Origin: Tridacna crocea
Taxonomy: Eukaryota > Mollusca > Bivalvia > Cardiida > Cardiidae
DNA: 64,000 bases
Reading direction: 5' to 3'
Assembly (NCBI GenBank): GCA_943736015.1
Contig: OX031061.1
Coordinates: forward strand, 64,920,192-64,984,191
Below, piece after piece: positions 14,734-64,000 of the stretch. Under the pieces are notes generated by a model. It was given only the letters and a program-made list of their open reading frames with translations, did no database searches and was not told the origin of the DNA. Position 1 is the first letter of the stretch, and every line of letters begins with the position of its first letter. The translations under genes and the position numbers were made by a program.

Positions 14734-14980
14734 CAATGACACGTCCAAGGTCATACAGCACTAACTACACAACGCATTATTGATCTGAACTTTCCTTATA
14801 AGCATTTTAAACCAATATCCAACGCCGTTAGGGATAAAAAAAAAGTTCCCAAGCGGAAGATTTCCCTTGCATTTTTACCGATGTCGTCCTCTTTTTACCA
14901 ACAATGACGTATTTCCGGTTCCTTCATATATGAAGCCTGATCAGAATGCGGTTTCACAGCGACGAACGATCTATCTGCAG
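14734..14980 (+). promoter_or_regulatory. promoter and 5' untranslated exon, peptide gene 1
   Basis: Elements in order: nuclear-receptor-like GTCCAAGGTCA; an AAAGTTCCCAAGC box; the palindromic kB-like GGAAGATTTCC (14855-14866); TTTTTACCGA; TGACGT (14905-14910) abutting ATTTCCGGTT (ETS-like); TATATGAA at 14926; and an initiator-like TTTCACAG near 14952-14959. The tiny non-coding exon ends CTATCTGCAG at 14980 and is followed by the donor GTGATG. The other six copies use GTAAT. Transcription-factor names are by eye only. Confidence 0.7.
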
Positions 14981-15950
14981 GTGATGTCAAGTTATTTTAT
15001 TCATTTACTTAATTTTTTAGAAAAATTATCGTTCATTGATGGCGAGGAAAATTGAGACTTTCAAATTTTGTTATCCTAGATCTACTTATTTAGAAATAAG
15101 TAAATGTTAATTATATATGTGTATACAAGTTGCACAGAAAGTAAGGCTGTACAGTTTTATATACGTACATTTTACAACTTTCAATTTCAGGTGAAGAGAT
15201 AAATTTTATATATTACATACTCGTACATATAATATGAATTTGCGTGTGTGCGTGATAATTCAATTTAGTTATTATCATATTTTCACTTTAATAAAGATTT
15301 CAAATCAGATATACCCTTTTTGCAGTAAGCGTCATTTGGTAATTAAGACATTTTTAATGTGACGGCCTTGTATGCTCTTTTCTTGTTTTGTCTGGCTTGG
15401 GGCTGTAGACCTTTGACTTCAAATACATATAACCCTACAAGAAGTTTGAAAAATAAGTTTCCGTGTTTTGAATGAAGTCCAATACATTGTAAAACACGTG
15501 ATTTTAAAAGGATGACGGTACTGGCCACATAATTTAAAGACTTTTTTAACAATGCGTTTGGTGAAAGATTTATAAGGAGACTATAATATCTGGACATAGA
15601 ACAGAAAATTTTGATCTGAGCAGAGGCCCGCCCTCAACTTGTTTGGTCTTTCCTTTTAATTGAATTCAAAGGTCTATCCCAGGCCTGATACCACAGACAA
15701 GTTGTTAAAAAACCTGAAGTATATAATCAAGAGGGTTGCTATTGGAATATGTGTAAAGTAAGTGACGGTTCCATTGTGAGTGTTGGGCAAGGAAAGAGCA
15801 TAGAATGTAGTAAAATTGAAGGACAGAGCATCCTAAAGCTTCCGGCGCAACATGGAAAAGAAATTAAGGTTAGTTGAGAAATAAGGATTTATACTCACAT
15901 AATACTTTCGCACGTATTTAACCGACCACAAAATCCTTTGATGTCTATCT
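14981..15950. other. start of intron 1 of peptide gene 1
   Basis: Non-coding. It begins with the conserved intron start shared with units 2-7 (ATTTACTTA ... GAAAATTGAGA). It then continues into unit-specific sequence with no gene seen. Confidence 0.4.
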
Positions 15951-18900
15951 TGATATTGTTTGTTTATATTTTTATTGGTCAGATTTTGAAATGATTTAAG
16001 AGAAATGATCCTTAGGAGACCCTTTTCAAAAGCTCTTCTTCATTTTTTGATCTGTTGAAAAACATGGCAAGGGGGGGGGGGGGAGGCTCTTTGCGTTCTT
16101 TAAAAAAATCTGCTCTTAAACCACAGTTCAGATTTAAAAACTATTTCACAGTAATTTTCAGTGGGCGACCCTTTCAAAAACTGTCCGTGAAATTTGGATC
16201 CTTTAAAAAATATGGCCGTGGTGTGTGTGGGGGAGGAGGACCTTTGCGTCGTGCGTTGTCATTTATTCTTTAAACGTCTTCTCCTCCTAAACAGCTTTGC
16301 AATTAGAACCAAACTTGGCTGGAATGTTCCGTCACAGGTTTTCTTTAAAAAGTCATTTACAGAAGATGATTCCATCAAAACCTCTGGTTGCCTTTGCAGG
16401 TAAATGAAATTGTCTAAGAAATGCTTTAAAAATCTTCTTCTCTGTAACCGCAGCTCAGATTTTAAAATTATTTCACAGAAATGTTCCTTAGATGACCCTT
16501 TTAAAAACTTTGCGTGAATTTTTTATCCTTCTAAAAATGACCGTTGTGTGTGGGGGCGAGCTACTTACATCGTGCTTTGTCAACAATGTTTTAAAAGTCC
16601 TCTACTTCTAAACGGCTTCGTAATTAGAACCAAACACAGTAGAACCCATACACACCACGGCCATTTTTTAGAGAGATCAAAATTTCACGAACAGTTTTTG
16701 AAAGGGTCATCCAAGAATTATTTCTGTAAAATAATCTTAATGTCTGAGCTGCGGTTTCAGAAGAGAAGATTTTTAAAGCATGTCTTAGAAAATTCCATTT
16801 AGTTGCAAAGGTAACCAGAGTTTTTAGTGGAATCAATTTCTGTAAATGTCTTTTTATAGAAAACTTATCAAGGAACATTCCAGCCAAGTTTGGTTCTGAT
16901 TATCAAGCCGTTTAGGAGGAGATGACGTTTAAAGAATTGTTGACAACGCACGATGTACAGAGTTGCCCCCCCACCCACTCACAAACATCAGGGCCATTTT
17001 TTAGAAGGATCAAAATTTCAGGAACAGATTTTGAAAGGGGCGTGGGCTCTTTGCATCGTGCGTTGTCATTAATTCTTTAAACTTCTCCTAAACGGCTTGG
17101 CTATTAGAACTTGACTGGAATGTCGCTTGATAGGTTTTCTCTAAAAACATATTTACAGGAATTGATTCTGTAAACATATTTTTCAAAAACTCTGGTTGCC
17201 TTTGCAAGTAAATGGAATTTTCTAAGAAATGCCTTAACAATCTTCTCCTCTGAAACCGCTGGTCAGAATTGTTCTTTGGATGACCCTTTTAAAAAACATG
17301 TTCCTAAATTTTGATCCGTTAAAAAACATGGCCATGGTAAGGAGAGGGGGAGGGGGATGGTCTTTGCATTCTTAAAAAAAATCTTCTTCTGTGAAACTGC
17401 TGGTCAGATTTTGAAATTTTACAGCTGGGTGACCCTTTCCAAAAATTGTTCGTGAATTTTTATGGTGGTGGGGGGGGGGAAAGGACCGGGGTGGGGGGGC
17501 TCTTTCCGTTGTGCGATTTGAACAATTCTTTCAACATCTTCTCCTCCTAAACGGCTTGGCTTATTAGAACCAAACGTGGCTGGAATGTGCCTTGGAAGGT
17601 CCTCTTTACAACTTGTTCACAGAATTTAATTCAGTCGAAAACTCTGGTTGCCATAGCAACCAAATGGACTAACCCTAATCCTTCTAGTCAATTTCTAAGA
17701 ATTTCTTTACAAAACGTTCTCCTCTTAAACCGCTGGTCAGATTTTGATCCGTCGAAACACATTGCTGATAGGGGAGGGGCTCTTCGCATTTTTTAAAAAC
17801 CTTGTCTTCTGATACCGCTAGTCTTATTTTGAAATCATTTCACATTTATTTTCCTTTGGTGACCCTTTCCAAAAATAGATCTGAAACTGCTGGTCAGATT
17901 TTGAAATAATTTTACAGAAATTTCCTTGGGTGACCCTTTTCAAAACTTATTTCTGAAATTTTGGTCCGTCAAAAACGTGACCATGGCAAGGAAAGGGAGT
18001 GTCTTTGCATTCTTTAAAAAAATATTCTCTGATTTCACAGTTATATTCCTCGGGTGACTCTTTTCAAAAATTGTACGTGAATTTTTATCCATCTAAATGC
18101 ATGACCGGGGGGACTTCTTTCATCTTGAGGTGTCAACAATTCCTTATACATTTTCTTCTCCTCAACTGCTGGGCATATTTGAACTAAACTTGGCTGGAAT
18201 GTTCCTTGGGTGGTCCTCTTTAACCATTGTTCACCAAAAGCTGTGGTAGCCATGGCAAATGGATTTCTAAGAAATTCATTGAAAATCTCCGATACCTCAA
18301 GTCCGATTTTGAAATAATTCCACAGAAGAGTTCCTTGTGTGACCCTTTTCAAAAATTGTTTGTGAAATATTGATCTGTCAAGAAATGGCCAGGGGCCTCT
18401 TGCCACTTTTTGGACTTAAAAGAAATTCTTCTTCTCTTAAACCACTGGTCAGATTTATAAACAATTTCACAGAAATGCTCCTTCAGTGCCCCTTTTGAAA
18501 AAGTGTGTGCGAAATTTTGATCCGTAAAGAAACATAGCTTTGGTGATGTGGGCTACTTGCAGTATATGGACCGAAGAAATTCTTGAAAATTCTTCTTCTC
18601 TGAAATCACTGGGCAGATTTTGAAACAATTTCACAGACCTTTTGATATTCATCAAAAGACTGTATAGGTGTTTTGACGAAAAGGGCTGTTGCAAACGTCA
18701 ACCTCTACCAGGTGAGAGCAAAGGTGAGAAATGGTGATCAATATGTACACTTTCTCCTTGATGTATTCGATAGCTATGTATTGCAAGAGGTAATATAAAA
18801 ATATATTTTTGGAATACATGCATAATATTTTACAAATTATCCAAATGGCCTCTACCCAGGTGTTAACCGCCTTTTTCTTTACCATTTTTGTACTGTATGA

Positions 18901-20169: not shown

Positions 20170-20797
20170 CGTTTTCAATGTCTCTACAAAAATGAATAAG
20201 ACTTTCACTAATGTCTCTTCAAATATGAATACGATTTCACATGTCTCTTCAGATAAAAACTACGATTTTCACTGAAGTTTTACAGATATGAAGACGACTT
20301 TCATTGTATCTCTTCAGATATGAATACGACTTTATTAAGCTTCTCTTAACATATGAATAAGACTTTCATTAATGTCTAATCAGATATGAAAATGACATTT
20401 ACTTATGTCTTTTTAGACATGAAAACGAATTGCACGAATAACTCTTCGGATGTAAATAAGATCTTTAGCAATGTCTACTTCAGATATGAATGACAGACTT
20501 TGGCTGATGCCTTCAAATATGAAAGAGAATAAAAAAAATTGATAAATGTTTACATTAGATATCGGGAATGTCTCCAGATATCTGTTCCTCTTCCAGGAAT
20601 GTCACTGCAGATATGAATTGGAATTTTCAGGAAAGTCAGTGCAGATATGAACAGGACATTCACGACTGTCTTTTCAGATATGAATGGGACTTTCGCAAAC
20701 ATCTCTTTAGAAATGAATAGGATTGACGAATTGTTGTTCAAGACTTAAATGAATGTCTCGTCAGCCATAAATAAGACATATGAATGTCTCTTCAGAT
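20170..20797 (+). repeat. degenerate 33-bp repeats upstream of signal exon 1
   Basis: About 18 decayed units resemble ATGAATAAGACTTTCACGAA followed by TGTCTCTTCAGAT. Each contains a splice-acceptor-like CTTCAG and an ATGAA(T/C)AAG start like the true signal exon at 21054. Similar arrays precede the signal exons of units 2, 3, 4 and 6. Confidence 0.75.
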
Positions 20798-21026
20798 TTA
20801 ACCCTTTCCCAAACAATCCCTGGTTTTTACGGGCCTGGAAAAGTAGCCTTTTGAAAACATTGTGGGAAAAAGAGAAAATGCTGGTAACCAGCATTTTCTC
20901 CTTTTCCCACACTGTTTTATACCCTATCATAGACAGAAATCATCTTTTCAGCAAGAGTTGAATTGTCGTCTGCAAATGCTTTCAATTTGGTCTAGTCCAA
21001 AAGTTTGTCGTTTGGGAAAGGGTTAA
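20798..21026 (+). mobile_element. TTAA-target MITE, 229 bp
   Basis: TTAACCCTTTCCCAAACAAT at the left and TTTGGGAAAGGGTTAA at the right form terminal inverted repeats with TTAA at both ends. The centre is a long palindrome (GAGAAAATGCTGGTAACC and its complement). It interrupts the 33-bp repeat array and ends only 27 bp before the acceptor of the signal exon of gene 1. Confidence 0.85.
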
Positions 21027-21055
21027 CTAAGACTTACCATATTGTCTCTTTAGAT

Positions 21056-21643
21056 ATGAACAAGATTGTCACGCTCGCGATTTGGACACTCTTGGCCTGT
21101 TTTGGCCTTATGATGTCAGCCTATGGCCAGTATGCTTCTAGAGGTTTCGGAGGCATTTTTTCGGCACTCATATTCTGTAAGTAACAAATCAATCTACTAT
21201 TGTTTATCTCTGACTCGACTATAAAAGTTTTGGATTATCCTGGTTGATGGGATCTGTCGTTAAAAGGGTTGAAAATACCGGGATTCTGGGTAAAGGGAGG
21301 GTTGCCTCTATTAAAGACTGATATTCCCACTGCTCAAAACACAGAAAAAATATGTTTTTAAAGCATCACTTCATAAGACAAGATGATGGGAAAAGAGAAA
21401 AAGCTAGTCACCAGTATGTCACCATTTCGTGAATTTCTTTCAGAAAACTGTCTTAGGGTTATTTAAGTACGGGATTGTTAAACAACGAATTAATGAATTT
21501 ATTATTGTATTTCAGTGTTTGTGTTTATCATCATTTTCCGACTGCTGTTCAATAGCAATCTTTTAAACCCGTCACCAACCCCAGCACCAACACCAAAACC
21601 AGGCCCAGGTAAGACATAAGACATAAGACACATGTATCTGAAC

Positions 21644-21681
<38 letters not shown>

Positions 21682-21786
21682 CAACAGATAGATAGATATA
21701 TAGATCGAAAGATAGATAGATAGATGGATGGATAGATAGATCGATCAACAGATAGATAGATCGATAGAAAGAAAGAAAGAAAGATC

Positions 21787-21824
<38 letters not shown>

Positions 21825-22947: not shown

Positions 22948-23430
22948 GGAAGGACGAATAGAAAAAATGGATGTGAACGTTGGTGGATGTACAAACTATT
23001 AAATTACATTCGTTAACCCTTTCCCAAACGACAAACTTTTGGACTAGACCAAATTGAAAGCATTTGCAGACAATAAATCAACTCTTGCTGAAAAGATGAT
23101 TTCTGTCTATGATAGAGTAGAAAACATTGTGGGAAAAGGAGAAAATGCTGGTAACCAGCATTTTCTCCTTTTCCCACAATGTTTTCAAAAGGCTACTATT
23201 CTAGACCCGTAAAAACCAGGGATTGTTTGGGAAAGGGTTAAACAGGCGGATGGTATATATCCATCACTAGACTATATTTTTGTGCGGCATGATGTTGACT
23301 TATGCCAACCTCAACAGTTCTTGCTGTCGACTAACACGCCTAAATACAGTAACGCCGACTTACACTTTAAATCTATCAACTTTATCATAAAAATCTTTGA
23401 CGATTTTTCGTTTCAGGTAAGGTGTACTGA
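21056..23430 (+). CDS. small signal-peptide/membrane-helix peptide gene, unit 1 (75 aa)
   Basis: Exons: signal exon from acceptor 21053 to 21176 (ATG 21056), membrane exon 21516-21608, final exon from 23417 with stop 23428-23430; poly(A) signal AATAAA at 23525. All junctions are GT-AG, and the frame is open across them (phase 1 at both). The N-terminus is a signal peptide (MNKIVTLAIWTLLACFGLMM) with likely cleavage at SAYG/QY. A short Gly-rich linker precedes a helix of about 20 residues (FSALIFLFVFIIIFRLLF). A Pro-rich tail (NPSPTPAPTPKPGP) ends GKVY. I know no named family. The product is either a tiny single-pass membrane protein or a hydrophobic secreted peptide. Intron 1 is 6 kb because of insertions. 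Confidence 0.7.
21609..21890. repeat. GATA/GAAA microsatellite after the membrane exon
   Basis: Long runs of GATA, with GAAA and GATC interruptions, start about 40 bp after the donor of the membrane exon. Short GATA tracts occur at the same position after the membrane exons of units 2 (29335), 3 (43235) and 6 (56905), so the tract predates the duplications. Confidence 0.85.
21891..23012. other. intron 3 of peptide gene 1
   Basis: Non-coding; small frames here lack any support. A second GATA tract lies at about 22913-22945. Confidence 0.4.
23013..23241 (-). mobile_element. TTAA-target MITE, inverted copy, 229 bp
   Basis: It starts TTAACCCTTTCCCAAACGAC and ends TTTGGGAAAGGGTTAA. It is the reverse orientation of the copy at 20798-21026 and nearly identical to it. 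It lies in the last intron of unit 1. Confidence 0.85.
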
Positions 23431-23530
23431 TAAGGTCCATATTCAAAAATCAACATTCGAAAAAGACTGTTAAATTCAGCAGCACGTGAACCCGCTATCA
23501 TCTTCGAGTCTTATGTACCTGCTTAATAAA

Positions 23531-25769: not shown

Positions 25770-25920
25770 GGGGTAAAAAAGTTCCCAAGCGGAAGATTCC
25801 CCTCACTTTTTTACCGAAACCGTCTGATTTTTCACTAAAAAATGATGTACTTCCGGTTCCGCCATATATGAGACTAGCTGATCAGATTTTCCTTCACAGC
25901 GAAAAAGCATCTCTCTGCAG
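25770..25920 (+). promoter_or_regulatory. promoter and 5' untranslated exon, peptide gene 2
   Basis: Contains AAAGTTCCCAAGC, the kB-like GGAAGATTCC (25791-25800), TTTTTTACCGAAACCG, a degenerate TGATGTAC next to TTCCGGTTCC, CATATATGAG at 25863, and CTTCACAG near 25892. The non-coding exon ends CTCTCTGCAG at 25920; donor GTAATG. The CCAAGGTCA box found in the other units is missing here. Confidence 0.7.
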
Positions 25921-27019: not shown

Positions 27020-27021
27020 AT

Positions 27022-30000
27022 ATGAACAAGATTTTCACGCTGGCGTTTTGGACATTCCTGGCCTGTGTAGGCCTGATGATGTCAGCCTATGGTCAGTATG
27101 GTTATAAAGGAGGAATTTTTTCCATACTCATATTCTGTAAGTAACAAATACTCTATTATTGTTTATTTCTCACGCGCTATAAAATTTTGACTCACCTGTT
27201 TGATTAGATACATCTTCAAGAGATTCTTGGAAAAATATGAAGTGAATAATACCTCTTTCGAGAGCTGCAAAAAATCTACTTCTCAAAACACAGAAAGATT
27301 TTTACTCATAGAACTTCACTATAGAATTTGTTCCAAGATCAGACTCTAAGTTTTGTTGTTGTTGTTGTTATTTATTTTTTGTCTGAAAATATTGTGGTTT
27401 GTTTTCTTTACGTATCGATAGATCTATAACTAATTTGTGTTCTGCATCAAAGAATTGATTTGTAAAATTAGTTTTTCGCAAACAGTGCTTAATTCTATAT
27501 ACTCAATGTTCTGTTACCTTTTCTTTTAGTTCTTTACACGCATGTTATTCATAAAGGAAAGGATGACTGATTAACTTCACTGAAGTCAGAGAAAGTATTA
27601 TGATTTGAAAAAAAAAATGTTGAAGAATAATGACCTATATGAATCATTATCAATATTGTCAAAAAAATTTACTGTTTTATTTAGATGTACTTTGATGTTT
27701 TCGTCGAATCCATCTTAACGTAGAACCGACGGTATAACACTTTAAAAGCTGTTAGCACCATATGAGAAAACAGGTCTTAATGCGGAAAGGACGGATCAAG
27801 ATCCGACTGCACATGAAGTGTAGTCTGACCAATGATCCATTCCGTCCACTTAATTTAGACAAGCCGAGAGAAAGATTTAAAAAATATAACTCAAGTTGGC
27901 TCTTAAGATAAAAGTTTATTGAACGAGTGTGAGATTCATTTGAACTATGCTCTGTGAAAATGGGGGCTGTATGCATCTTTAAAAAAATATTGACCCAAAT
28001 CAGCTTGCACAGGCTCTGTTGGGTGACTTTGGCCGAAAGTCTCTGCTATTGGTCAATTTTCTGCATGGCAAAAGACCGATCTACCTCTAAATTTGGTCGG
28101 TTGTTAAACAAAACAGATTTCAGAGATTCAGACTTCTGTGATCACTTGCTCGGTATAATGCATCAAACCGACGTTTACAATAACTCATTTTTTGGAAAAG
28201 AATAAATTGTCTATCGCTTCCGCTTTGGGCAATGGCGCTAGGCCAAGTATAATCACCACAACCATTATCTTCCACTCGACAGCATAAAATAAGTACACAT
28301 CTAATTTCGACATTCTGAATACAGAACCAGAGTACAAAACAACAGCCTCTATTTAAGTTTCAAAATAATATTAAATTCACGTGGTGCGATTCATTCAGCT
28401 ATGGACAGCTAGCATGTAACATATGCACCGGTCATTATTAAAACAGGCCTCTAGGCTTTGGTTATAGCCTGTGATATAGACCCTAATATCATATTTCATA
28501 TGTCTATTTTCAGAAATCTTATGGGTAAAGAAAGGTCGTAATTTAAGCTGGGGGAATTATTTCCCCGTCACAGTGAATATTTTCCTCCTGCCGAAAATCT
28601 GGAACTACTTTCTTGTTCTACTAAAAATAATCTTGAAAGTGGCATACATTGACAAAATAATCAGAAGAAATATATAATTTATTTCATCAGCTTGTGGTTA
28701 ATATGGGGAAATATTTGCCTCAAAAAGGAAAGGTCCGTCGCACGAGATATTTTCGTGGACCTTTCCCTTTTGAGGCAAAGTTATCCCCATATTAACCACA
28801 AGCTGGTGAAATAAACTCCATTTCTTCCCATGTATATGGAATGGATATATCAAACAGGTCGGAGTTTCGAAGATTATCACATGCGCAGACAACGCCAGCA
28901 CCACCTACATAACGACAACAACAACTAAACCAACAACAATAACACCTACAACTACTACTGCCACTACTTCAACTGTTAACGTTGAAATGTATCCGGGTTG
29001 CTCCCTCAGATCACATATGGACGACTTCAACAGATATATTTGTATATTTAGCCTACGACCATGTATCGACCGTAGGATAGGAAAAGATGAGGGTAAAAGA
29101 GAAAAAGCTAGCCACCTGCATGTATTTGTTTCCCACGTTGCTTTCAGGGAGGCGTTTTCCTCATGATTATTCGAGTCAGGGTTGTTTTATAAGAAATTAA
29201 CAAATTCATTGTTGTATTTCAGTGTTTGTGTTTATCGTCATTATCAAACTGCTGTTCAATAGCGATCTTTTAAACCCGTCGCCGCCCCCAGCACCTACAC
29301 CAAAACCAGGTAGGCTAAAAAGCACAGATATTTGAAGATAGATAGATAGATGGAAAACCGGTCTGACGGACGGATGAAAAGATGGGTGATTGGGTGTTTG
29401 GACTGACAAATAGACAGTTGTACGTGTGGATACATGTATGTAGGCGGGAAAGTGGATTGATAGACCGATCGATACCCTGACCGATTGAATGGCTAATTGA
29501 CTAACTGATAGATGTACTTGTTTTTTGTTAACGTCTCTGTGCTCTTCTTAGATCTTGTATAGTTCCCAGAATGCAAATCTCCATCTCGTTGAAAACTTAT
29601 TTTGACACGACGAACAGGGTTGAAATTTAAGCTTCGTTGGAATAAGACTACCTTATGAGGTTTGACCTTTGTGATGTTTCCTTATTCGACTTGTTTTATT
29701 TTACTGCAAACGAATTTCTTCGCGATCTGATTTGATACTATGTCCAGAATACCAGCCCACAAGACAAACATACTGAGTGGCCTGTACCTTATTATTTCTA
29801 GTTTCCCTAGATGGTTGTCATTAATACGTAATGGATTATTTTTGAAAAACAAATGAATATAGGTACATGTATTACCATTTGTTGTCGTTCTTAAATAAAC
29901 ACATGGTTAAAAAGAACCACCCCTTTGCCAGGTAAATAATCCGTAAAGTGCCGAAACTCGTACATTGTAATTAGCGATGCTCAATCAAAAAGAGAAGCGT

Positions 30001-32750
30001 CCCTTGAATTGATCTTATGAATATTAATGAGGCACCATTTCTGACCCAACGTTGGGGCAGATTTATTACACTCGAGGGTACAAAAACAAACAAAGAAAAT
30101 ACGTTTTTACGTAATTGTAAACTTTAGTAGATATGATACATAAAAGTTTTCGCGAAAATTCCTTTTTACAAAAATTTACAAGAAAATGAAAAATTCCGAT
30201 CAATTCTTTCTTCATTTCTAAGGCGATTACGCTTGTCAAATTACTTTTGGACGGAGATATAGTACTATTATGATTTTTATGTACAGATATTTTTTCTGAT
30301 ATAATCCACTGGCAAGATATGTAATTATTACCCTTTTAAATCCCGGATACGCGTTTACAAAAAAAAGAGAAAAAAATACAATGGCGGCTAAAACGAAACT
30401 GATAGTTCCAATTTTGATCGATCTTTTGCCAACAAATTTTGCCTCTAAGTTTTCTTTCTTGAACTAAGGAACATGTCTGATATAAGCATTTCTTATTATC
30501 ATACATGATAACTACTACCGAAGTGAAATATCACACTTTAAGTTTCGTACCAGTACAACTTTGTGCTTTTTATTTCTTACAAGTTATATTTCATCCTAAT
30601 TAATTTTACAAAGCTTCAAAATCGGAGATTATTGAATTTCGTGTTTAGCACTGAGGTTATAAAACAAAATTCCCTTATTTAAATAAATGATCCATAGTTT
30701 AAACTGCCTTATTGAATGGTTTAAAAAAAATAATCAAAATTTTGTCCCTCTTAACATACTTGATACTGTTTGGCAAATACATGCACTCAAGTGAAGAAAA
30801 TGTAACTAGTTGCAATTCTCTTGACTAAACTGATTGACATAGAAATTTGAATATCAATATGCTGGCAGATAAAACTGCATCAATATGTTTCTATTATGAT
30901 TGCCTTGAAGAGAATATCATGAGAGAAATAATGTATAACGTCATTTCCCACACTGGCTGAAGAGAAAAAAAAAAAGTTTTCTTTGAGCAACTAATTTAAC
31001 ACCTTATTGTGTTTGAAAACATAGTGCAAAAGGAGTAGTTTTCTGTTATGAACAAACAAGTCATGACCTGACCACCTAAAGTAATTTTATAGGTGTAATA
31101 GAAAAATGTAGAAATAATGGATGGGAATATTTCTGACCTTCTTTCCTGACCTTGACCTTGGACCTGTAACCTTACCTTTTTATGATAAAGATTATTTTCC
31201 CCAACATCCCCAGTTGGTTAGAATTATAATTTCAATTTGTATTAAGACTTGTACATATTTAGGATGTTTTTGCTCACTAATTTTACAAATTCATTCATAT
31301 AGAGGTTTACCTTTATTATAAAGTGATATTGGCCGCCCTAGCAAAGCAAGACAAGCTATGGCACTTCAGTCAGACAAAAAAAAGGAAGAAAAATAGAAGA
31401 TTCTGGTTGTGTTCATTTTGCTTATCGATATTAAACTGTAAGACGTTGAACTGATCTTCAAACTTGTTTTTCTAGCAAGACAAAGATATTTCATACAATC
31501 ACAATTTTCGGCGGATTTCAAATGAGTAAAGGGTTAAAATCTTAGTCAGTTATACTATTGAAGAATATTGTCTATGATTTAGGTTGATATTATGGTATGT
31601 GTGTCACTAAATGAGAACATTAATTTCTTTTGGCATAAAGTTTAGTAAACAGATATGTATTTGGTGGCTTTGTCTTCTTATTCCAGTAGTTTTTTGCATA
31701 TGTTTAAGCTAATTGTCGATGGTTAAATATATCATAACTTTTTTTTTTATTACTTGAGATATTTAAATGAAATAAGCGGTATTCAAAACAGGAAAGATTT
31801 TATGTTTTTTCTTTTTTAGAATCTTAAGTCATTTTACAGAATACTTTAATGTAGATATTTGACATAATGTTGTGTCCCTTTTTTTATATATATATATTTC
31901 ATTTGTAGCTAATTTTTTGTGCTTTTTGGTGTAAAAGGTTAACACTGAATAATTTCTATACTACTTGAGATATTTGAACGAAACAAACGGTTTTATAAAT
32001 AGGAAAGATGTATTATTTTAGATTTGTTAGTGTTTAATAGAACATTTCAAATGAAAAAAAAAATATTGCATTACTATTGTAACGTTTCAAGGATAACCAA
32101 ATTGTCTTTTGAGGCGAATAATGTTCGTTCACTTTCACCAACAAATCATTAAAAAGCATGATTACATACACTGAGGTTGTGTAAATCCATGTTTGAATAA
32201 AAAATACGTCGAGTATCTATCGCAGTGACTTCATCAAGTTTCTGCACCAAACTGTACGTTTTACGAAGGTTTTAGTGGCGTCATCTGAGTGACGTCAGTT
32301 TTTATTGAATTTGGACATGCAGAGGGGAAATTATGTGTAAATCAGCGTAGTCTATATTAGTACTGGGAAATTTCGCATAGTACAGCTTAGAATGATAAAA
32401 CTTTGCACTATAATAATTTGTCGTAGTCAGATGGCAGGGGACTAGGAAACTTGTTTACGGCTGTTGCGAATTATGTCCCCACCTCACCTTCTGCTCGAGG
32501 CGACATGATTCACCACAGCCATGAACAAGTTCAATTCGGGGCGACATCATTCGCCACAGCCATGAACAAGTTTCCCAGTTCCTTGCCTCCTGACCGTACA
32601 ATTAATAATGCCATGCTCAACAGCTCCTGCTGTCTACTACTGACGCTTAAAGTTAGTAACTTTAGCCGACATACATCTAAGATTTAGCACCCTTATCTTA
32701 CATTTTTTTACTTTGTTTTCGTTTCAGGTAAGGTCTATAAAGGTGGATAA
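27022..32750 (+). CDS. small signal-peptide/membrane-helix peptide gene, unit 2 (74 aa)
   Basis: Exons: signal 27020-27136 (ATG 27022), membrane 29223-29309, final 32728 with stop 32748-32750; AATAAA at 32836. GT-AG junctions and phase-1 joins are identical to unit 1. The signal peptide is MNKIFTLAFWTFLACVGLMM with SAYG/QYGYKGG after it, the helix region is FSILIFLFVFIVIIKLLF, and the Pro tail ends GKVYKGG. An alternative last exon at 33715-33740 would end GKVYGSGG (75 aa). Unit 6 differs from it at only a few codons. The role is unknown. Confidence 0.7.
27137..28677. other. intron 2 of peptide gene 2, first part
   Basis: Collinear with 54692-56256. No coding frame is conserved between the two copies, so I see no nested gene. 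Confidence 0.5.
28678..28814. mobile_element. 137-bp foldback palindrome
   Basis: Arms TTTATTTCATCAGCTTGTGG and CCACAAGCTGGTGAAATAAA continue inwards through ATGGGGAAATATTTGCCTC and GGAAAGGTCC to a short loop. The same structure, with separate arm changes, lies at 56257-56375. Probably a foldback MITE older than the segmental duplication. Confidence 0.75.
29310..32727. other. intron 3 of peptide gene 2
   Basis: Non-coding, with a GATA tract at the start and the CCTTGACCTTGGACCT dispersed-repeat motif near 31145. A 66-codon frame at 31121 is open in both duplicate copies, but it lies in that repeat and has no other support. Confidence 0.5.
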
Positions 32751-33790
32751 GAAATAAAAGAAAAAGACAGTTAAACCCAGCAGGATGTGAACCCACCGTC
32801 ACCTTCGTGTTTTATTTATTGTACTGTAACTGCTGAATAAAGAACTTACTTTGAATTAAAAAGGCGTTCAGTCAAACTGAGTGCGTGTGAAGATCCTGGT
32901 GTATTAAGCTTACATAATTATGTTCATAGAATATCTTCGTCTGCATTTAAAGTGTCACGTATCCATTACTAGTTTTCTTATCTTTACATATTTGAGATAG
33001 GATTTGTGACGTCATAGAAGCATATTGTGGCGTCATTTGCTATTAAAAACATTGTCTTCTAGCCAGTTATTTCCAAAAGCGGCGTTTCACTTATATCTGA
33101 TCAATTGAATTTCGAAATTCATGATGATGAAGATAAAAAAGGCTTGCTGTAATTTACTTTTCAATTTCACTGGTATTTTCCTTCAATATTCAGCCCAATG
33201 ATTCGAAATTGTCTGGTTTCAAGCCAAGAGTTTACAGAAATATTATGAAAGGTGGAAATGAAGATGTATAAGCTTCAAAATCGGGGATTATTGAATTCTG
33301 TCTTTAGCACTGAGGTTATAAAACAATTCCCTTATTTAAATAAATGATCCATAATTGAAACCACCCTATTGAATGGTTAAAAAAATGATCAAAATTTTGT
33401 CACTCTTAACATACTTGATACCGCTTGGCAAATACATGCACTCAAGTGGAGAAAACCATGTCCCCCAACTCGCCTTCTGCTCGGGGCGACATGATTCGCC
33501 ACAGCCATGAACAACTTCGATTCGGGGCGACATGATTGGCCACAGCCATGAACAAGTTTCCAAGTCCCCTGCCTCCTGACCGTACAATTGATAATGCCAT
33601 GCTCAACAGCTCCTGCTGTCTACTATTGACGCCGAAAATTAGTAACTTTAGCTGACATACATCTAAGATTTAGCACCCTTATCTTACTTTTTTTTTACTT
33701 TGTTTTCGTTTCAGGTAAGGTCTATGGTAGTGGTGGATAAGAAATAAAAGAAAAAGACAGTTAAATCTTATTCTCACTTCTCAATTTCAC
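32420..33790 (+). repeat. local duplication of the last exon of unit 2
   Basis: The segment containing CACCTTCTGCTCGAGGCGACA... and the last exon at 32728 is repeated about 990 bp downstream, with the second last exon at 33715. Both acceptors read TTTCGTTTCAG and both exons start GTAAGGTCTAT. The first copy has a poly(A) signal; I did not find an equally clear one just after the second. Unit 6 has only one. Confidence 0.75.
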
Positions 33791-35274: not shown

Positions 35275-35519
35275 GTACACGGCCAAGGTCATACTGCACA
35301 GAAAAGACAGCACATCATAATATTGATCTGAACTGTCCTAAATAGTATTTAAAACGAATGCCAACGCCCTTAGGGTAAAAAAGTTTCCAAGCGGAAAATT
35401 CCTTTTTTCCTTTTTACCGAAGCCGAGTTTTTACTAACAATGATGTATTTCCGGTTCCGCCATATATGAAGCTTGTTGATCAGACTTTGGTATCACAGCG
35501 ACGAAGAATCTCTCTGCAG
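35275..35519 (+). promoter_or_regulatory. promoter and 5' untranslated exon, peptide gene 3
   Basis: Contains GCCAAGGTCATAC, AAAGTTTCCAAGC, the perfect kB-like palindrome GGAAAATTCC (35393-35402), TTTTTACCGAAGCCG, TGATGTATTTCCGGTTCCGC, CATATATGAAGC at 35461 and TATCACAG near 35491. The exon ends TCTCTGCAG at 35519; donor GTAATG. Confidence 0.7.
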
Positions 35520-41565: not shown

Positions 41566-41567
41566 AT

Positions 41568-47414: not shown

Positions 47415-47664
47415 CGGTACACGTTCAAGGTCATCCAGCACAAAACTGACTGCGCATCCTAGTGATGATCTGATAATGTTCCTACCAATGTTTTAAATCA
47501 ATTCCATTGCCGTAAGGGTTAAAAAAGTTCCCAAGTGGAAGGATCCCTTCAAATAATTAACGAAGCTGTCTGTTTTTACCAACAATGACGTATTTCCGGT
47601 CCCTCCATATATGATGCCAGTTGACAAGAATTGGGTTTCACAGCTACGAACAGTCTCTCTGCAG
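47415..47664 (+). promoter_or_regulatory. promoter and 5' untranslated exon, unit 4
   Basis: Contains GTTCAAGGTCATCC, AAAGTTCCCAAGT, the kB-like GGAAGGATCC (47537-47546), AATGACGTATTTCCGGTCCC, CATATATGATG at about 47606 and TTTCACAG near 47637. The exon ends CTCTGCAG at 47664; donor GTAATA. Confidence 0.7.
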
Positions 47665-49889: not shown

Positions 49890-50052
49890 CATACAAGTCA
49901 ACCATATCCAATGTCTTTTCAGATATTGATAAGATTTTAACGAAAGGCGTATCAAATATAAATTAGACTTTCGTAAATGTCTTGTCACACTTGACTAAGA
50001 CTCACAAATGTCTTTTCAAATGGGAATAAGCCTTTCACGAATGTATCTTCAG
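49890..50052 (+). repeat. 33-bp repeats upstream of broken signal exon 4
   Basis: About four decayed units ending at the acceptor TATCTTCAG (50052). Confidence 0.65.
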
Positions 50053-50105
50053 ATATGAACAAGATTTTTATGCTCGCGTTTTTGACATTCCTAGTACATG
50101 AGCAG
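50053..50105 (+). pseudogene. unit 4 signal exon, truncated
   Basis: The exon starts normally (acceptor CTTCAG, ATG 50055, MNKIFMLAFLTFLV), but after about 14 codons it runs into unrelated sequence with a poly(A) run at 50119-50134. From about 50195 the DNA is the upstream flank of a unit (matching 46950-47400). No membrane or final exon follows before the next promoter. The break is best explained by unequal exchange between units. Confidence 0.8.
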
Positions 50106-50714: not shown

Positions 50715-51182
50715 CAGTACACGTCCAAGGTCATCCTGCACAAATCTGACTGTACATTCTCATGTTGATCTGATATGTTCCTACCAGCGTTTTAACCCAT
50801 TACCACACAATCCCTACTTTTGACGACTCTGAGAAAGAAGCCTTTAGAAAACATTGTGGGAAAAGGAGAAAATGCTGGTAACCAGCATTTTCTCCTTTTT
50901 CCCACAAAGTTTTCTACCATGTCAAAGTAAACTTGCACCATATGAGCCACTTTGAAAATGTTGTCTGCAATTTGGACAGGTCGATTTTTTTTTCTGTGTG
51001 GTAATGGGTTAAATCAATACCATCGCCGTAAGGGTTAAAAAAAGTTCCCAAGCGGAAGGATCCCTTCAAATAATTAACGAAGCCGTCTGTTTTTATCAAC
51101 AATGACGTATTTCCGGTCCCTCCATATAATGATGCCAGCTGATCAGAATTCGGTTTCACAGCTACGAACAGTCTCTCTGCAG
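50715..51182 (+). promoter_or_regulatory. promoter and 5' untranslated exon, orphan unit 5
   Basis: TCCAAGGTCA (50724-50733) is separated from the core by a TTAA MITE (50792-51012). The core has AAAGTTCCCAAGC, the kB-like GGAAGGATCC (51054-51063), AATGACGTATTTCCGGTCCC, CATATAATGATG at 51123 (an altered TATA box) and TTTCACAG near 51154. The exon ends CTCTGCAG at 51182; donor GTAATA. No signal exon follows before unit 6. Confidence 0.7.
50792..51012 (+). mobile_element. TTAA-target MITE inside the promoter of unit 5, 221 bp
   Basis: TTAACCCATTACCACACAAT to TGTGTGGTAATGGGTTAA. The uninterrupted site GTTTTAAATCAAT is present in unit 4 (about 47490-47502), giving a direct before/after comparison and a TTAA target duplication. 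Confidence 0.9.
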
Positions 51183-53204: not shown

Positions 53205-53461
53205 ACGGTACACCTCCAAGGTCATACTGCACAGCAAAGACAGCACATCTTGATATTAATCCTGAACTCTCCCTATTAGCATTTAATCGAATACCAACGC
53301 TGTAACGGTAAAAAAGTTCCCAAGCGGAAGTTCCCCACACTTGTTTACCGAAACCGTCTGAATTTTTACTAAAAAAATGACGTACATGTACTTCCGGTTC
53401 GGTCATATATAAGGCTAGCTGATCAGATTTTCCTTCACAGCGACGAAGCATCTCTCTGCAG
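53205..53461 (+). promoter_or_regulatory. promoter and 5' untranslated exon, peptide gene 6
   Basis: Contains CTCCAAGGTCATAC, AAAGTTCCCAAGC, the kB-like GGAAGTTCCCC (53326-53336), AATGACGTACATGTACTTCCGG, CATATATAAGG at 53404 (the best TATA box of the set) and CTTCACAG near 53433. The exon ends CTCTGCAG at 53461; donor GTAATA. Confidence 0.7.
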
Positions 53462-54234: not shown

Positions 54235-54565
54235 CAACCGTATTCAACATCTTTTCAGATAATAATGAGACTTTCACGAATATCTATTCAAATATAAATA
54301 AGGCTTTCGCTGATGAAATTTCAATGATGAATACGAAGTTTGCGAATGTCTCTCAGATATAAATAAGAGTTTTGTAAATGTCTCATCAGACATGAATAAC
54401 ACTCACGAATTTCTCTTCAAATACGAATATATATAAAACGACATTCACGAATGTTTCTTTCAGATGTATACAAGCCTTTTAAAAATTTCCCATTATAAGG
54501 TATGAATAAGTCTTTTGTAAAAGTCTCGTCAGACATGAATAGGACTCTCACTAGTGTCTCTTCAG
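54235..54565 (+). repeat. 33-bp repeats upstream of signal exon 6
   Basis: About nine units collinear with 26700-27019. The last two (from 54502) are open and in frame with the signal exon, as in unit 2. Confidence 0.75.
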
Positions 54566-54567
54566 AT

Positions 54568-57500
54568 ATGAACAAGATTTTCACGCTGGCGTTTTGGACA
54601 TTCCTGGCCTGTGTGGGCCTGATGATGTCAGCCTATGGTCAGTATGGTTATAAAGGTGCTGGAGGGGGAATCTTTTCGATACTCATATTCTGTAAGTAAC
54701 AAATACTCTACTATTGTTTATCTGTTACCCGTCTATAAAATCTTGACTCACATGTTTTATTAGAAACATCTTCAAGAGATTCTTGGAAAAATATGAAGTG
54801 AATGTTACCTCTTTCTAGAGCTGATAAAAATCTACTTCTCAAAACACAGAAATATTTTTACTCCTAGAACTTCACTAAAAAAGTTGTTCCAAGATCAGAC
54901 TCTAAGGTTTTTTTTGGTTCTTTTGGTCGTTGTTGTTGTTTATTTTTTGTCTGAAAATATTGTGGTTTGCTTTCTTTCTGTATCGATAGATCTACAACTA
55001 ATTTGTATTCTGCATCAATGAATTAGTTTTTCGCAAACAGTGCTGAATTTTATATATTCAATGTTCTGTTATCTTTTTTTAGTTGTTTACACGCATGTTA
55101 ATTCATAAAGGAAAAGATGACTGATTGACTTCACTGAAGTCAGAGAAAGTATTATGATTTTGAAGAAAAAAACGTTGAAGAATGGTGACCTATATTAATC
55201 ATTATCAATATTGTCAAAAGAGTTTACAGTTTTATTTAGATGTACTTTGGTGTTTTCGTCGAATCCATCTTAAAGTAGAACCGACGTTATAACACTTTAA
55301 AAGCTGTTACCACCATGTGAGAAAACAGGTCTTAATGCGGAAAGGACGGATCAAGATCCGACTGCACATGAAGTGCAGTCTGACCCATGATCCATTCCGT
55401 CCAATTAATTTAGACAAGCCGAGAAAGATTTAAAAAATCTAACTCAAGTTGACTCTTAAGATAAAAGTTTATTGAACGAGTGTGAGATTCATTTGAACTG
55501 TGCTCTGTGAAAATGCGGGTTGTATGCATCTTAGAAAAATGATCGACCCAAATCAGCTTGCACAGGGCATTGCTGGGTGACGTGGGCCGAAAGTCCTTGC
55601 TATTGGTCAATTTTCTGCATGACAAAAGACCGATCTACCTCTAAATTTGGTCGGTTGTTAAACAAAATAGACTTCAGAGATTCAGACTTCTGTAATCACT
55701 TGCTCTGTCGGTATAATGCATCAAACTGAATTTTACAAGAACTCATTTAGAAAAAATCAGTTGTCTATCTCTGCCGCTTTGGGCAATGGCGCAAGACCAA
55801 GTATAACCACTACAACCTTTATCTTCCACTCGATAGCATAAAACAAGTACACATCTATCTAATTTCGACATTCTGGATACAGAACCAGAGTACAAAACAA
55901 CAGCCTCTATTTAAGTTTCAAAATAATATCAAATGCACTCTATATAACGCCACGTGGTGCGATTCATTCAGCTATGATCAGCTAGCATGTAAGATATGCA
56001 CTGGTCATTATTAAAACAAGCCCCTAGGCTTTGGTTATAGCCTGTGGTATAGACCCTAATATTATATTTCATGTGTCTATTTTCAGAAATGTTATGGGTA
56101 AAGAAAGGTCGTAATTTAAGCTGGGGAAAATTATTTCCCCGTCACAGTGAATATTTTCCTCCTGCAAAAAATCTGGAACTACTTTTTTGTTCTAGATCGC
56201 TAAAAATAGTCTTAAAACTGGCATTCATTGACAAAATAATCAGAAGAAATATATAATTTATTTCATCAGCTTGTTAATATGGGGAAACATTTGCCTCAAA
56301 AGGGAAAGGTCTGTCGCGGACCTTTCCCTCTTGAGGCAAATCTTTCCCCATATTAACCACAAGCTGGTAAAATAAACTCCATTTTTTCCCATGTATATGG
56401 AATGGATGATGCATCATATCAAACAGGTCTGAGTTTCGAAGATTATCACATGCGCAGACAACGCCACCACCACCTAGACAACGACAACAACGACTAAACC
56501 AACAACAATAACAGCTACAACTACTACTGCAACTATACTTCAACTGTTAACGTTGAAATGTATCCGGGTTGCTCGCTCAGATCCTATATGGACGACTTCA
56601 ACAGATATATTTGTATATCTAGCCTTCGGCCATGTGACGACCGTAGAATAGGAAAAGATGAATGTAAAAGAGAAAAAGCTAGCCACCTGCATTTATTTGT
56701 TTCCCACGTTGCTTTCAGGGAGGCGTCTTCTCCAGGATTATTTGAGCACGGGGTTGTTTAGTATCAAATTAACAAATTTATTGTTGTATTTCAGTGTTTG
56801 TGTTTATCGTCATTATCAGACTGCTGTTCAATAGCAATCTTTTAAACCCGTCGCCGCCCCCAGCTCCTACACCAAAACCAGGTAGGCTAAAAAGCACAGA
56901 TATTTGAAGATAGATAGATAGATAGATAGATAGATGGAAAACCGATCTGACGGACGGATGAAAAGATGGGTGATTGGGTGTTTGGACAGACACATAGACA
57001 GTTGTACGTGTGGATATGTAGGCGGGAAAGTGGATTGATAGACCGATCGATACCCTGACCGATTGAATGGCTAATTGACTGACTGATAGATTTACTTGTT
57101 GTTTGTTAACGTCTCTGTGCTCTTCTCAGATCTTGTATAGTTCCCAGAATGCAAATCTCCATCTCGTTGAAAACTTATTTTGACACGACGAACAGGGTTG
57201 AAATTTAAGCTTCGTTTATGAGGTTTGACCTTTGTGATGTTTTCTTATTCGACTTGTTTTATTTTACTGCAAACGAAATTCCTCGCGATTTGATTGGATA
57301 CTATGTCCAGAATACCAGCCCACAAGACAAATATACAGAGTGGCCTGTACCTTATTATTTCTAGTTTCCCTAGATGGTTGTCATTAATACGTAATGGATT
57401 ATTTTTGAAAAACAGATGAATATAGTTACATGTATTATCATTTGTTGTCGTTCTAAAACAAACACATGGTTAAAAAGAACCACCCCTTTGCCAGGTAAAT

Positions 57501-61516: not shown

Positions 61517-62286
61517 TGTTGCATTACTATTGTAACGTTTCAAGGATAACCAAATGGTCTTTTGAGGCAACTATTGGTCGTTCTCTTTCGCCAACAAATC
61601 ATTAAAATGCATGATTACATACACTGAGGTTGTATAAATCCATGTTTAAATAAAAATACGTCGAGTGTCTATCGCAGTGCTTTCATCTAGTTTCTGCACC
61701 AAATTGTACATTTTACGAAGATTTTAGTGGCGTCATCTGAGTGACGTCAGTTTTTTTTTTTAATTTTGGACATGCAGAGGGGACATTATGTGTAAATCAG
61801 CGTACTCTGTACTAGTACTAGTAAATTTCGCATAGTACAGCTTAGAATGATAAAACTTTGCACTATAATAATTTGTCGTAGTCAGATGGCAGGGGACTAG
61901 GAAATTAGGCCTACTGGGAAATTTCGCATAATACAGCTTGGAATGGTAAACCTTTGCAGTATAATAAATTCGTCGTAGTCAGATGGCAAGGTACTAGCAA
62001 ACTTGTTTACGGCTGTGGTCAATCATGTCCCCATCTCGCCTTCTGCTCCGGGCGACAAGATTCGCCAAAGCCATGAACAAGTTCGATTCGGGGCGACATG
62101 ATTGGCCACAGCCTTGAACAAGTTTCTAAGTCCCCTGCCTCCTGACCGTACAATTAATAATGCCATGCTCAACAGCTCCTGCAGTCTACTATTGACGCTT
62201 AAAGTTACTAACATCTAAGATTTAGCACCCTTATCTTACATTTGTTTTACTTTGTTTTCGTTTCAGGTAAGGTCTATGGAGGTTGA
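54568..62286 (+). CDS. small signal-peptide/membrane-helix peptide gene, unit 6 (76 aa)
   Basis: Exons: signal 54566-54691 (ATG 54568), membrane 56795-56881, final 62267 with stop 62284-62286; AATAAA at 62375. Signal MNKIFTLAFWTFLACVGLMM, mature start QYGYKGAGGG, helix FSILIFLFVFIVIIRLLF, Pro-rich tail ending GKVYGG. It is the duplicate of unit 2, with AGG inserted in the linker and Lys-to-Arg in the helix end. All splice sites are intact. The last intron carries a 1.85-kb insertion absent from unit 2. Confidence 0.7.
56257..56375. mobile_element. foldback palindrome, duplicate of 28678-28814
   Basis: Arms TTTATTTCATCAGCTTG and CAAGCTGGTAAAATAAA with inner GGAAAGGTC / GACCTTTCC. The left arm is shortened compared with copy A. 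Confidence 0.7.
58021..59877. mobile_element. 1.85-kb insertion in the last intron of unit 6
   Basis: Copy A reads straight through (TGTCTGATATAAGCATTTCTT at 30475), while here about 1857 bp intervene. The left part is a long palindrome (CTAGTGTTGTAGAATATCAA and complement, about 58030-58180). The interior holds a possible minus-strand exon (58602-58900). A plus-strand acceptor TTTCTAATTTCAG near 59487 is followed by AATAAA at about 59635. The insertion could be a foldback element that captured host exons. Confidence 0.6.
58602..58900 (-). pseudogene. possible captured exon on the minus strand, about 95 aa
   Basis: A good acceptor (CACTGGCTTTCAG) precedes a frame of about 95 codons of ordinary composition (ENHCPPRSNSVSQIST ... 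SVTTPMFYGTILNVGRL), ending in a stop. No other exon was found. I do not recognise the protein. Confidence 0.25.
61449..61514. repeat. A-rich homopolymer tract
   Basis: About 66 bases of nearly pure A, present here but only nine A's long in copy A (near 32053). It is likely a slippage expansion or assembly-sensitive site. Confidence 0.85.
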
Positions 62287-62380
62287 TAAGAAATAAAAGA
62301 AAAAGACAGTTAAACCCAGCAGGATGTGAATCCACCGTCACCTTCGTGTTTTAATTATAGTACTGCAACTGCTAAATAAA

Positions 62381-63599
62381 GAACTTACTTCGAATTAAAA
62401 AGGCGTTCTGTCAAACTGAGTACGTGTGAAGATCCTGGTGTATCAAGCTTATATAATTATGTTTATAGAATATCTTCGTTTGCATTTAAAGTGTCACATA
62501 TCCATTACTAGTTTTCTTATCTTTACATATTACATTGTGACGTCATAGAAGCATTCATTCCGAACTTGCAGGTATGCCCTAGGAAAGGATCGATCTCTCA
62601 TAAAGATATATATGATTTTTCAAGTAATTCTTAAGATACGGTAATATGATAAAAGTTATCTATTATTCGTTGGCGTCTGAGATATTTCTTTTATCAAACT
62701 TGTCAATAATGATGTTAATAGGCTCGCCAAATGCTCGCTGAATACTATTTCTCTCCACTTCGTGTAATAAAATTATATCTCATACAACATAATCTTATCC
62801 AACACAACACACGGCCATACCTCGGTATTTTTTGTATAAACTGAACATAAAAGAAGTTTGTCCATTCATACGGCATGTTTTTTATTGAATGAATAGTGCA
62901 TGGGCATGAAATAAATCGGAAAAAATCGAGAAAGATATAACTATAGGGATTAAAACTCGTCAGGTAGACACTTGTTTATTCATCCCACTATGAAATTGAC
63001 ACGATCATATGGAAATCTGAAACTCTTAACTCCTGAGCTATGCTTCAATCTGAGATTTACACGTGTTAAAAGTATATGTATCTGTTATCATGCAATGGCT
63101 GCTGAACCGTTACCAACTGTTTAGGAATTTATAGAGTTAAAATTACAAAAATGTCAGAATTTTAAGTGGATTTTCTGTGTTTTCTTTCTGTCTTTGAATT
63201 TCAGATATATCTTTGCATCCGACTGAGAATTAACCGTCTTTTTTAAAATTTTCTGGAAAACTTTTAAAACAAAATTTGGTACAATTCTATTTCAAGGGTG
63301 TTTTACTCAAGGAACATGCATATTGCAGTTAACTGGTAATGTAGTACTTTTTATGTGACTGGCAAGCCACCAACTTCGATGACGGTCATCAAGCCTTTAT
63401 AACAACAAAATGGCCTTTACTTGGCTTATTAAACTAGATTTGAAACCGTTTTCATACATTCTACACTTTAAAGATATTAGTCATCAATAAATCTACATCA
63501 AGCTGTAATTAATGCTTATTATGTATAAACAGAAGAAGAAAACATTCTGATTTATTTATTTCACTGATTGCTAAATCACGATATCGCACAAATTATCGG
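62381..63599. other. spacer between units 6 and 7
   Basis: Non-coding. At 62553 it jumps from the counterpart of 33030 to that of 34217. Confidence 0.5.
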
Positions 63600-63846
63600 A
63601 CGGTACACGGCCAAGATCATACTGCACAGAAAAGACAGCACATCATAACATTGATCTGAACTCTCCTAAATAGTATTTAAAACGAATGCCAACGCCCTTA
63701 GGGTAAAAAAGTTTCCAAGCGGAAGATTCCTTTTTCCTTTTTACCGAAGCCGAGGTTTTACTTACAATGATGTATTTCCGGTTCCGCCATATATGAAGCT
63801 TGTTGATCAGACTTTGGTATCACAGCGACGAAGGATCTCTCTGCAG
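63600..63846 (+). promoter_or_regulatory. promoter and 5' untranslated exon, unit 7 (gene runs off window)
   Basis: Contains GCCAAGATCATAC, AAAGTTTCCAAGC, the kB-like GGAAGATTCC (63721-63730), TTTTTACCGAAGCCG, TGATGTATTTCCGGTTCCGC, CATATATGAAGC at 63787 and TATCACAG near 63818. The exon ends CTCTGCAG at 63846; donor GTAATG. The coding exons would lie beyond 64000. Confidence 0.7.
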
Positions 63847-64000
63847 GTAATGATTGTCATATAATATGATATTCATTTACTTCACAAATGTCTTAGAAAA
63901 TTGAGACATTAAGATTGTGTTATCTTTCTTATATAGAAATAAGTAAGTGTTTATTCCTTCTATTGTATGTTCTTTGTTATGACGATGTAATTTGTACACT

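Follow-up and report, generated by a model that had tools for sequence, protein, structure and literature searches.

We identified, in a 64,000-nucleotide stretch of Tridacna crocea DNA (the window), a tandem array of genes for small proteins that form a selected, unnamed family; our searches matched it to none of the named families, and it has relatives in the zebra mussel. The reading that we favour, by a modest measure of confidence, is that of a birth-and-death array of real genes, whose product would be a small single-pass membrane protein of type I, found to date in this animal and Dreissena alone. Annotation seems to miss the family, the exons being tiny, lying kilobases apart and having no family model, and the six relatives, all in one species, are unnamed or loosely named.

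Units 1, 2, 3 and 6 of the array each have three coding exons in which every donor is GT and every acceptor AG, the two coding introns being in phase 1 and the spliced frames running to 75, 74, 77 and 76 amino acids respectively (Table 1), in agreement with an earlier note on this DNA that had described four units with the same phases, GT-AG sites and open frames of 74-77 amino acids. An AATAAA motif lies 95, 86, 99 and 89 nt 3′ of the respective stop codons. A promoter-like block ending in a CTGCAG/GT donor (cut between CTGCAG and GT) occurs seven times in the window and is presumed to be a non-coding exon 1; the splicing of the array genes is likewise predicted from the DNA. The common protein plan that had been proposed holds for the signal peptide, present in all four, but the QYG start reads QYA in unit 1, and the GKVY end is that of unit 1 only, the other units carrying one to three further residues.

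Table 1 Features of the array (window numbering, as for all positions in the text; all on the + strand)
Feature	Positions	Strand	Detail
Unit 1 conserved promoter block and presumed non-coding exon 1	14806..14980	+	donor at 14981
Unit 1 33-bp repeat array, intron 1	20177..21073	+	
Unit 1 exon 2, coding	21056..21176	+	signal peptide, stub, first half of helix
Unit 1 exon 3, coding	21516..21608	+	second half of helix, proline tail
Unit 1 exon 4, coding part incl. stop	23417..23430	+	AATAAA at 23525
Unit 2 promoter block and presumed exon 1	25772..25920	+	
Unit 2 exon 2, coding	27022..27136	+	
Unit 2 exon 3, coding	29223..29309	+	
Unit 2 exon 4, coding part incl. stop	32728..32750	+	AATAAA at 32836
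Unit 2 second exon-4 copy	33715..33738	+	possible alternative end GKVYGSGG
Unit 3 promoter block and presumed exon 1	35349..35519	+	
Unit 3 exon 2, coding	41568..41691	+	
Unit 3 exon 3, coding	43118..43210	+	
Unit 3 exon 4, coding part incl. stop	44383..44399	+	AATAAA at 44498
Unit 4 relic, promoter block	47493..47664	+	
Unit 4 relic, exon-2 fragment	50043..50092	+	
Unit 5 relic, promoter block	51009..51182	+	without exon 2 before unit 6
Unit 6 promoter block and presumed exon 1	53281..53461	+	
Unit 6 exon 2, coding	54568..54691	+	
Unit 6 exon 3, coding	56795..56881	+	
Unit 6 exon 4, coding part incl. stop	62267..62286	+	AATAAA at 62375
Unit 7 promoter block	63677..63846	+	coding exons beyond the window: 67031, 68606, 71173

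In the 1.05-Gb genome exon-3 DNA is matched 11 times, always inside 124 kb on one contig, which at the level of exon-3 DNA argues against copies elsewhere. The array extends approximately 83 kb beyond the window end and has grown via duplication of 26-37-kb blocks. Thirteen full-length exon-2 copies are present in the stitched region, eight in complete genes and five in broken ones; three 24-bp reverse exon-1 matches and the 29-bp exon-2 matches at 41358, 66812 and 138076 were left out of the copy counts, being too short or copies of the repeat. The four window units and four units beyond the window have intact splice sites, phases and frames; units 4 and 5 are relics.

The six pairs among units 1, 2, 3 and 6 gave dN/dS values of 0.23-0.51, with Fisher p < 0.05 in five of them (the pairs share sequences), and we therefore consider the array protein to be under purifying selection. 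Pooling 28 pairs from eight genes gave 0.32, and regional ratios within the array were 0.21 for the tail, 0.20 for the stub and 0.38 for the helix, these pooled and regional values carrying a small error from the use of unit 1 exon 3 six bases short (73 aa). Tail and stub thus look more constrained within the array than the helix, an observation that sits against the membrane-helix reading. Identity among the older copies is 90-91 % in exon 3 vs 54-84 % in the 150 bp on each side, and 79-86 % in exon 2 vs 48-76 % in its own flanks, while the few coding bases of exon 4 (55-70 %) are no better conserved than their surroundings (55-77 %). The earlier note had called this tandem protein-coding family likely selected, naming dN/dS near 1 with homologues absent as one outcome that would speak against it; the ratios above and the relatives found in Dreissena polymorpha uphold the claim.

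Protein searches, with the results of three pooled, identified six relatives, every one from the bivalve D. polymorpha: P0001 (DPMN_177050), P0002 (DPMN_144839), P0003 (DPMN_177113), P0004 (named acanthoscurrin-2-like), P0005 (DPMN_177069) and P0006 (DPMN_074543). The Dreissena matches scored modestly in the first pass (E 3.1e-3 and 9.1e-3). By alignment and hydropathy the array proteins and all six relatives have in common a signal peptide and a 19-residue hydrophobic helix of the IF-x-x-LI-x-LF-x-F-I type, of which 10 positions are invariant in alignments containing both species. Because the relatives keep these two elements and not the proline tail, we regard the helix as the family core; QYG, proline tail and GKVY, once listed with them in the common plan, are not a signature of the family. 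The outside part is short or Gly/Tyr-rich. Where the window proteins have a proline tail, P0001-P0003 have short, basic tails and P0004 and P0005 tails rich in Gly, Tyr and Asn. Four of the six Dreissena genes lie on a contig or contigs of identical size and three locus tags are at most 63 numbers apart, suggesting a gene cluster. An own-genome search with P0004 returned no match, a result of little weight, since an intron (after LIF, phase 1) interrupts the helix-coding part of the gene.

That no named family has this plan, as had been claimed, is supported by Pfam and NCBIfam, which gave nothing above cut-off, the Pfam search covering the four window proteins, P0001, P0004, P0005 and P0006. 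The best Pfam match of P0005 was YxzE (E 0.0014, 20.1 bits vs a cut-off of 40), and NCBIfam MIGRI, matched by three of six members (best E 0.0065), was rejected at 16.6 bits vs a cut-off of 28. The oxaloacetate decarboxylase gamma chain (PF04277) likewise has a helix followed by a proline-bearing tail; it matched all four window proteins weakly (best E 0.014) and was the best of seven weak helix matches among solved structures (E 0.15), but at 13.9 bits for the first protein vs a cut-off of 27 we attribute this to a likeness of composition. It is a bacterial enzyme subunit and is not known to have a signal peptide. Shematrins and shematrin-like mantle proteins possess a signal peptide and Gly/Tyr-rich stretches like those of the longer Dreissena relatives; the window proteins, however, have neither long Gly-rich repeats nor the basic RKKKY-type motif of the shematrin C-terminus, and their membrane-type helix is absent from the shematrin descriptions consulted. 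A mature chain of ~50 residues with one helix, short tails and presumed intramembrane action recalls the small single-pass membrane regulators FXYD, KCNE and phospholamban/sarcolamban, although no FXYD, KCNE or phospholamban-like profile matched the four window proteins in a Pfam scan up to E = 1. Rfam and ARAGORN gave nothing in the window, phage records queried with one exon-3 stretch gave no match, and none of 600 stretches fitting a pattern in an IMG/VR scan was confirmed. Within a limited literature collection of main texts without supplements, nothing could be linked to the family and the helix and tail strings were unmatched.

For a membrane protein, a signal peptide of ~24 residues, with likely cleavage at AYG/QY, would direct the protein to the secretory pathway, the 7-10 mostly glycine-type residues of the stub would remain outside the cell, the helix (IFSILIFLFVFIVIIRLLF in unit 6) would halt transfer and span the membrane, and the proline-rich tail would end up inside the cell. 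The parts outside the membrane would vary between species and the helix would be the part common with Dreissena. We infer expression, cleavage, topology, helix packing and function of the array proteins along these lines. Hydropathy and helix prediction are both consistent with one membrane span: the four window proteins have helix Kyte-Doolittle means of 2.91-3.15 and carry K or R close to the inner end of the helix, and AlphaFold2 predicts a helix at residues 33-50 of P0001 with pLDDT near 80 in a model that is weak as a whole (pTM 0.34, mean pLDDT 65). P0004-P0006 have N instead of K/R at the helix end, and the P0006 helix is weaker, with a Kyte-Doolittle value of 2.33 and, on an insertion scale, +0.25 vs -3.9 to -4.9 for six others. 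Variation among ten helices, which are related to one another, has helical periodicity when the best angle in 90-110 degrees is taken (p = 0.004) and is not significant at exactly 100 degrees (p = 0.21). One face of the helix appears fixed and it therefore probably packs against itself or a partner membrane protein.

The main rival to the membrane reading is that the protein is secreted as a structural component of the mantle, shell or byssus; the hydrophobic block would then assemble in the matrix, and tyrosines near both mature ends would be oxidised and cross-linked. P0004-P0006 are Gly/Tyr-rich around the helix, and Gly/Tyr-rich parts are described for dreissenid mantle and byssal proteins in PMC9210306 and PMC6474901. 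Tyrosines do lie near both mature ends of the window proteins, and P0001-P0004 and P0006 have Tyr close to their C-terminus. However, the window proteins are not Gly-rich apart from their short stub, the period of variation is helical and not that of a strand, and a 19-residue segment so hydrophobic should stay in the membrane via the translocon, which retains strongly hydrophobic segments of this length. We consider a matrix role rather unlikely.

A small secreted-type gene in a birth-and-death array of complete and broken copies could also encode an immune-peptide precursor, antimicrobial or otherwise, the array then being a fast-changing one, and presence/absence variation is known in bivalve peptide families (PMC10138031). 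Yet selection is purifying and not diversifying, the helix is uniformly hydrophobic and not amphipathic, positive charge is low, Pfam matches no peptide family, and there is no cysteine pattern, the four window proteins having no cysteine after the signal peptide, unlike cysteine-rich bivalve antimicrobial peptides. We judge this very unlikely; of the roles floated by the earlier note the small membrane protein fits best, and nothing here points to an immune peptide. It would be more surprising still if the open frames were non-functional remnants of a decaying segmental duplication: the five broken genes among 13 exon-2 copies and an exon-4 coding part conserved no better than its flanks are what decay would leave, but in eight genes every splice site and frame is retained, dN/dS stays well under 1 and Dreissena has relatives.

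The helix is kept across species while the tails change freely, and the array provides a concrete gene set for asking what the helix does in bivalve mantle, foot, gill and blood cells. An extension of the membrane reading, which we offer as speculation and think improbable as a whole, is a bivalve-restricted family that keeps a near-invariant membrane helix while the parts outside the membrane, be they a proline tail, a short basic tail or Gly/Tyr-rich domains, are swapped wholesale. The helix would then be a common module by which proteins that extend from the cell surface in the direction of a shell- or byssus-type matrix dock or assemble, with the coding-exon start in this animal also seeding 33-bp acceptor-plus-ATG copies, some in frame, as possible alternative N-termini. 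An unexpected feature of unit 1 is that the exon-2 splice acceptor, the start codon and the first codons make up the last copy (21041-21073) of an old 33-bp repeat array.

We reconstructed units 1, 2, 3 and 6, the complete genes of the array in the window, anew from the window sequence, and the gene family is real, as is selection on its protein. Consistent with the tandem coding family put forward in an earlier note, every donor is GT and every acceptor AG, each of the two coding introns lies in phase 1 and the reading frames stay open, with the start codon two bases 3′ of the AG acceptor in all four units. Coding exons 2 and 3 measure 115-124 and 87-93 nt and the last coding piece, stop included, 14-23 nt, giving proteins of 75, 74, 77 and 76 amino acids (units 1, 2, 3 and 6) that share 50 invariant columns. 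The QYG start described in that note holds for units 2, 3 and 6 but reads QYA in unit 1, whereas the GKVY end is exact in unit 1 and continues to GKVYKGG, GKVYG and GKVYGG in units 2, 3 and 6. The distance from the stop to AATAAA is 95, 86, 99 and 89 nt in units 1, 2, 3 and 6, respectively. Seven blocks in the window combine a TTCCGG core and a TATA-like stretch with an invariant CTGCAG/GT donor, and from them we infer a promoter and non-coding exon 1. Units 2 and 10 carry a second exon-4 copy 3′ of the first, possibly an alternative last exon.

Comparison of the older copies with one another gives 90-91% identity for exon 3, whose 150-bp flanks on each side reach 54-84%, and 79-86% for exon 2 (flanks 48-76%); exon 4, in its coding part, showed no excess conservation over its flanks (55-70% vs 55-77%). 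The dN/dS comparison called for in the earlier note bore out selection on the protein, the six pairs of the four window genes giving 0.34, 0.51, 0.24, 0.34, 0.23 and 0.24 (Fisher p, in the same order, 0.013, 0.057, 0.0003, 0.012, 0.037 and 0.001, from non-independent pairs with sequences in common). Recent copies of one another, units 2 and 6 differ by 290 substitutions and 34 gaps in 4627 aligned bases; nine of the 34 gaps are multiples of three, and coding length differences are whole codons only. Pooled over the eight complete genes of the wider array (28 pairs) dN/dS is 0.32, with 0.52 for the signal peptide, 0.20 for the stub, 0.38 for the helix and 0.21 for the tail. Within the Tridacna array the tail is thus constrained at least as much as the helix, which speaks against the tail being a free spacer.

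In the 1.05 Gb genome (31 contigs; window at C6:64920192-64984191), exon 3 with its flank matched 11 places, all on one strand of C6 at 64.94-65.07 Mb, the contig ending at 65.75 Mb. Joining the 98 kb following the window gave a 161.7 kb region containing 14 exon-1 blocks, one of them partial, 13 full-length copies of exon 2 and one longer fragment, 11 copies of exon 3 and 14 of exon 4. Complete genes number eight: units 1, 2, 3 and 6, and outside the window units 7, 10, 13 and 15, the last with a shorter tail ending in GKTYFG. Five of the 13 full-length exon-2 copies belong to broken genes. Four blocks of 26-37 kb, starting with units 2, 6, 10 and 13, share 88-91% identity across 48-88% of the block used as query, values to which dispersed repeats may add; this identity indicates that the array grew through block duplication. 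In the exon-2 tree copies cluster by position within the block.

A 33-bp repeat runs up to exon 2, its final copy comprising the splice acceptor, the start codon and the first codons of the exon, and another copy lies exactly one unit upstream at 14 of 15 places (all 13 full-length copies of exon 2 plus two fragments). Unit 1 is the exception, although 12 additional copies lie within 1.1 kb. Allowing up to 11 mismatches, we counted 36 copies in the window, with none on its other strand and none in three mononucleotide shuffles. As one repeat unit equals 11 codons, a preceding copy that has both AG and ATG, read by eye in units 2 and 6, would extend the protein by 11 residues in frame. The repeat array probably grew out of the exon-2 start, because the protein start resembles that of the relatives in Dreissena.

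Features of the window and the joined region (window numbering, continued past 64000)
Feature	Position	Remark
Cluster of long ORFs	1445-12322	dense
Satellite-like tandem array	12669-13945	167-bp units
33-bp repeat array	20177-21073	last copy = exon-2 start (unit 1)
Inverted copy, 234 nt	20797-21030	flanks unit 1 exons 2 and 3
GATA-type microsatellite	21644-21868	shortly 3′ of unit 1 exon-3 donor
Inverted copy, 234 nt	23009-23242	flanks unit 1 exons 2 and 3
33-bp repeat array	26703-27039	last copy = exon-2 start
Second exon-4 copy	33695-33765	unit 2
33-bp repeat array	41289-41585	last copy = exon-2 start
Copy related to inverted pair	46743-46928	
Satellite-like tandem array	47787-48899	161-bp units
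33-bp repeat array	49910-50072	last copy = exon-2 start
Longer exon-2 fragment	50043	
33-bp repeat array	54246-54585	last copy = exon-2 start
Broken copies	75387, 120522	stop in exon 2
Broken copies	83531, 111245	without usable exon 3
Second exon-4 copy	97182-97313	unit 10
Broken copy	102546	frameshift and lost acceptor

Three protein searches of 5.8 billion proteins, the third scoring the 7985 candidates with most shared words, supplied the homologues that the earlier note had proposed to look for: six proteins, every one from Dreissena polymorpha, a bivalve of the order Myida. These are P0001-P0003 (63-76 amino acids), P0004 (123, named acanthoscurrin-2-like), P0005 (215, its end resembling a run-on gene model) and P0006 (92). 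First-search E-values were modest (3.1e-3 and 9.1e-3); later scores benefit once a relative is in the profile, and while still outside it P0003, nearly P0001, reached 2.0e-17, P0004 2.6e-2, P0005 1.5e-10 and P0006 5.4e-3. Four of the six lie on contigs of equal size and three have tags no more than 63 numbers apart, suggesting that these genes too are clustered. P0001 and unit 6 agree at 21 of 44 positions, with helices IFSILIFLFVFIIVIRVLF and IFSILIFLFVFIVIIRLLF, while stub and tail do not align. The core of this unnamed family, so far known from the Tridacna species and Dreissena, is therefore the helix and not the proline tail that the earlier note had stressed.

The helices of the four window proteins have a Kyte-Doolittle mean of 2.91-3.15 and an uncharged core, with K or R close to the inner end, where P0004-P0006 have N; that of P0006 is weaker (2.33). 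AlphaFold2 placed a helix at residues 33-50 of P0001 (pLDDT near 80) in a model of low overall confidence (pTM 0.34). Across ten helices positions 1, 2, 5, 6, 8, 9, 11 and 18 are invariant, and the power of variation at 90-110 degrees exceeded permutations (p = 0.004, related rows), that at exactly 100 degrees not doing so in the same ten related helices (p = 0.21). We read the segment as a membrane helix having one working face.

These are probably small proteins held in the membrane, whose topology, partners and tissue we infer. The protein would enter the secretory pathway, where the helix would halt transfer and leave a chain of about 50 residues in the membrane with a tiny stub outside and the tail on the inner side, and the fixed helix face may pack onto itself or onto a partner. 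A structural matrix protein is the strongest rival, because three of the Dreissena relatives are Gly/Tyr-rich, resembling the Gly/Tyr-rich mantle and byssal proteins described in dreissenids (PMC9210306, PMC6474901); the passages on those proteins describe none with such a helix. In the pearl oyster, a shell gene rich in Gly is reported to have three predicted membrane helices (PMC3893171), so membrane helices and Gly-rich sequence do co-occur in shell genes.

The two inverted copies that flank unit 1 exons 2 and 3 are 95% complementary and look like a small mobile element. GATA runs shorter than that of unit 1 start after exon 3 in other units. Separate Pfam scans of ten ORFs from the cluster at the window's start identified double-jelly-roll capsid, A32-like ATPase and integrase core with chromo domain, together with phospholipase A2-like and RING finger domains, and the cluster looks like a Polinton/adintovirus-like element.
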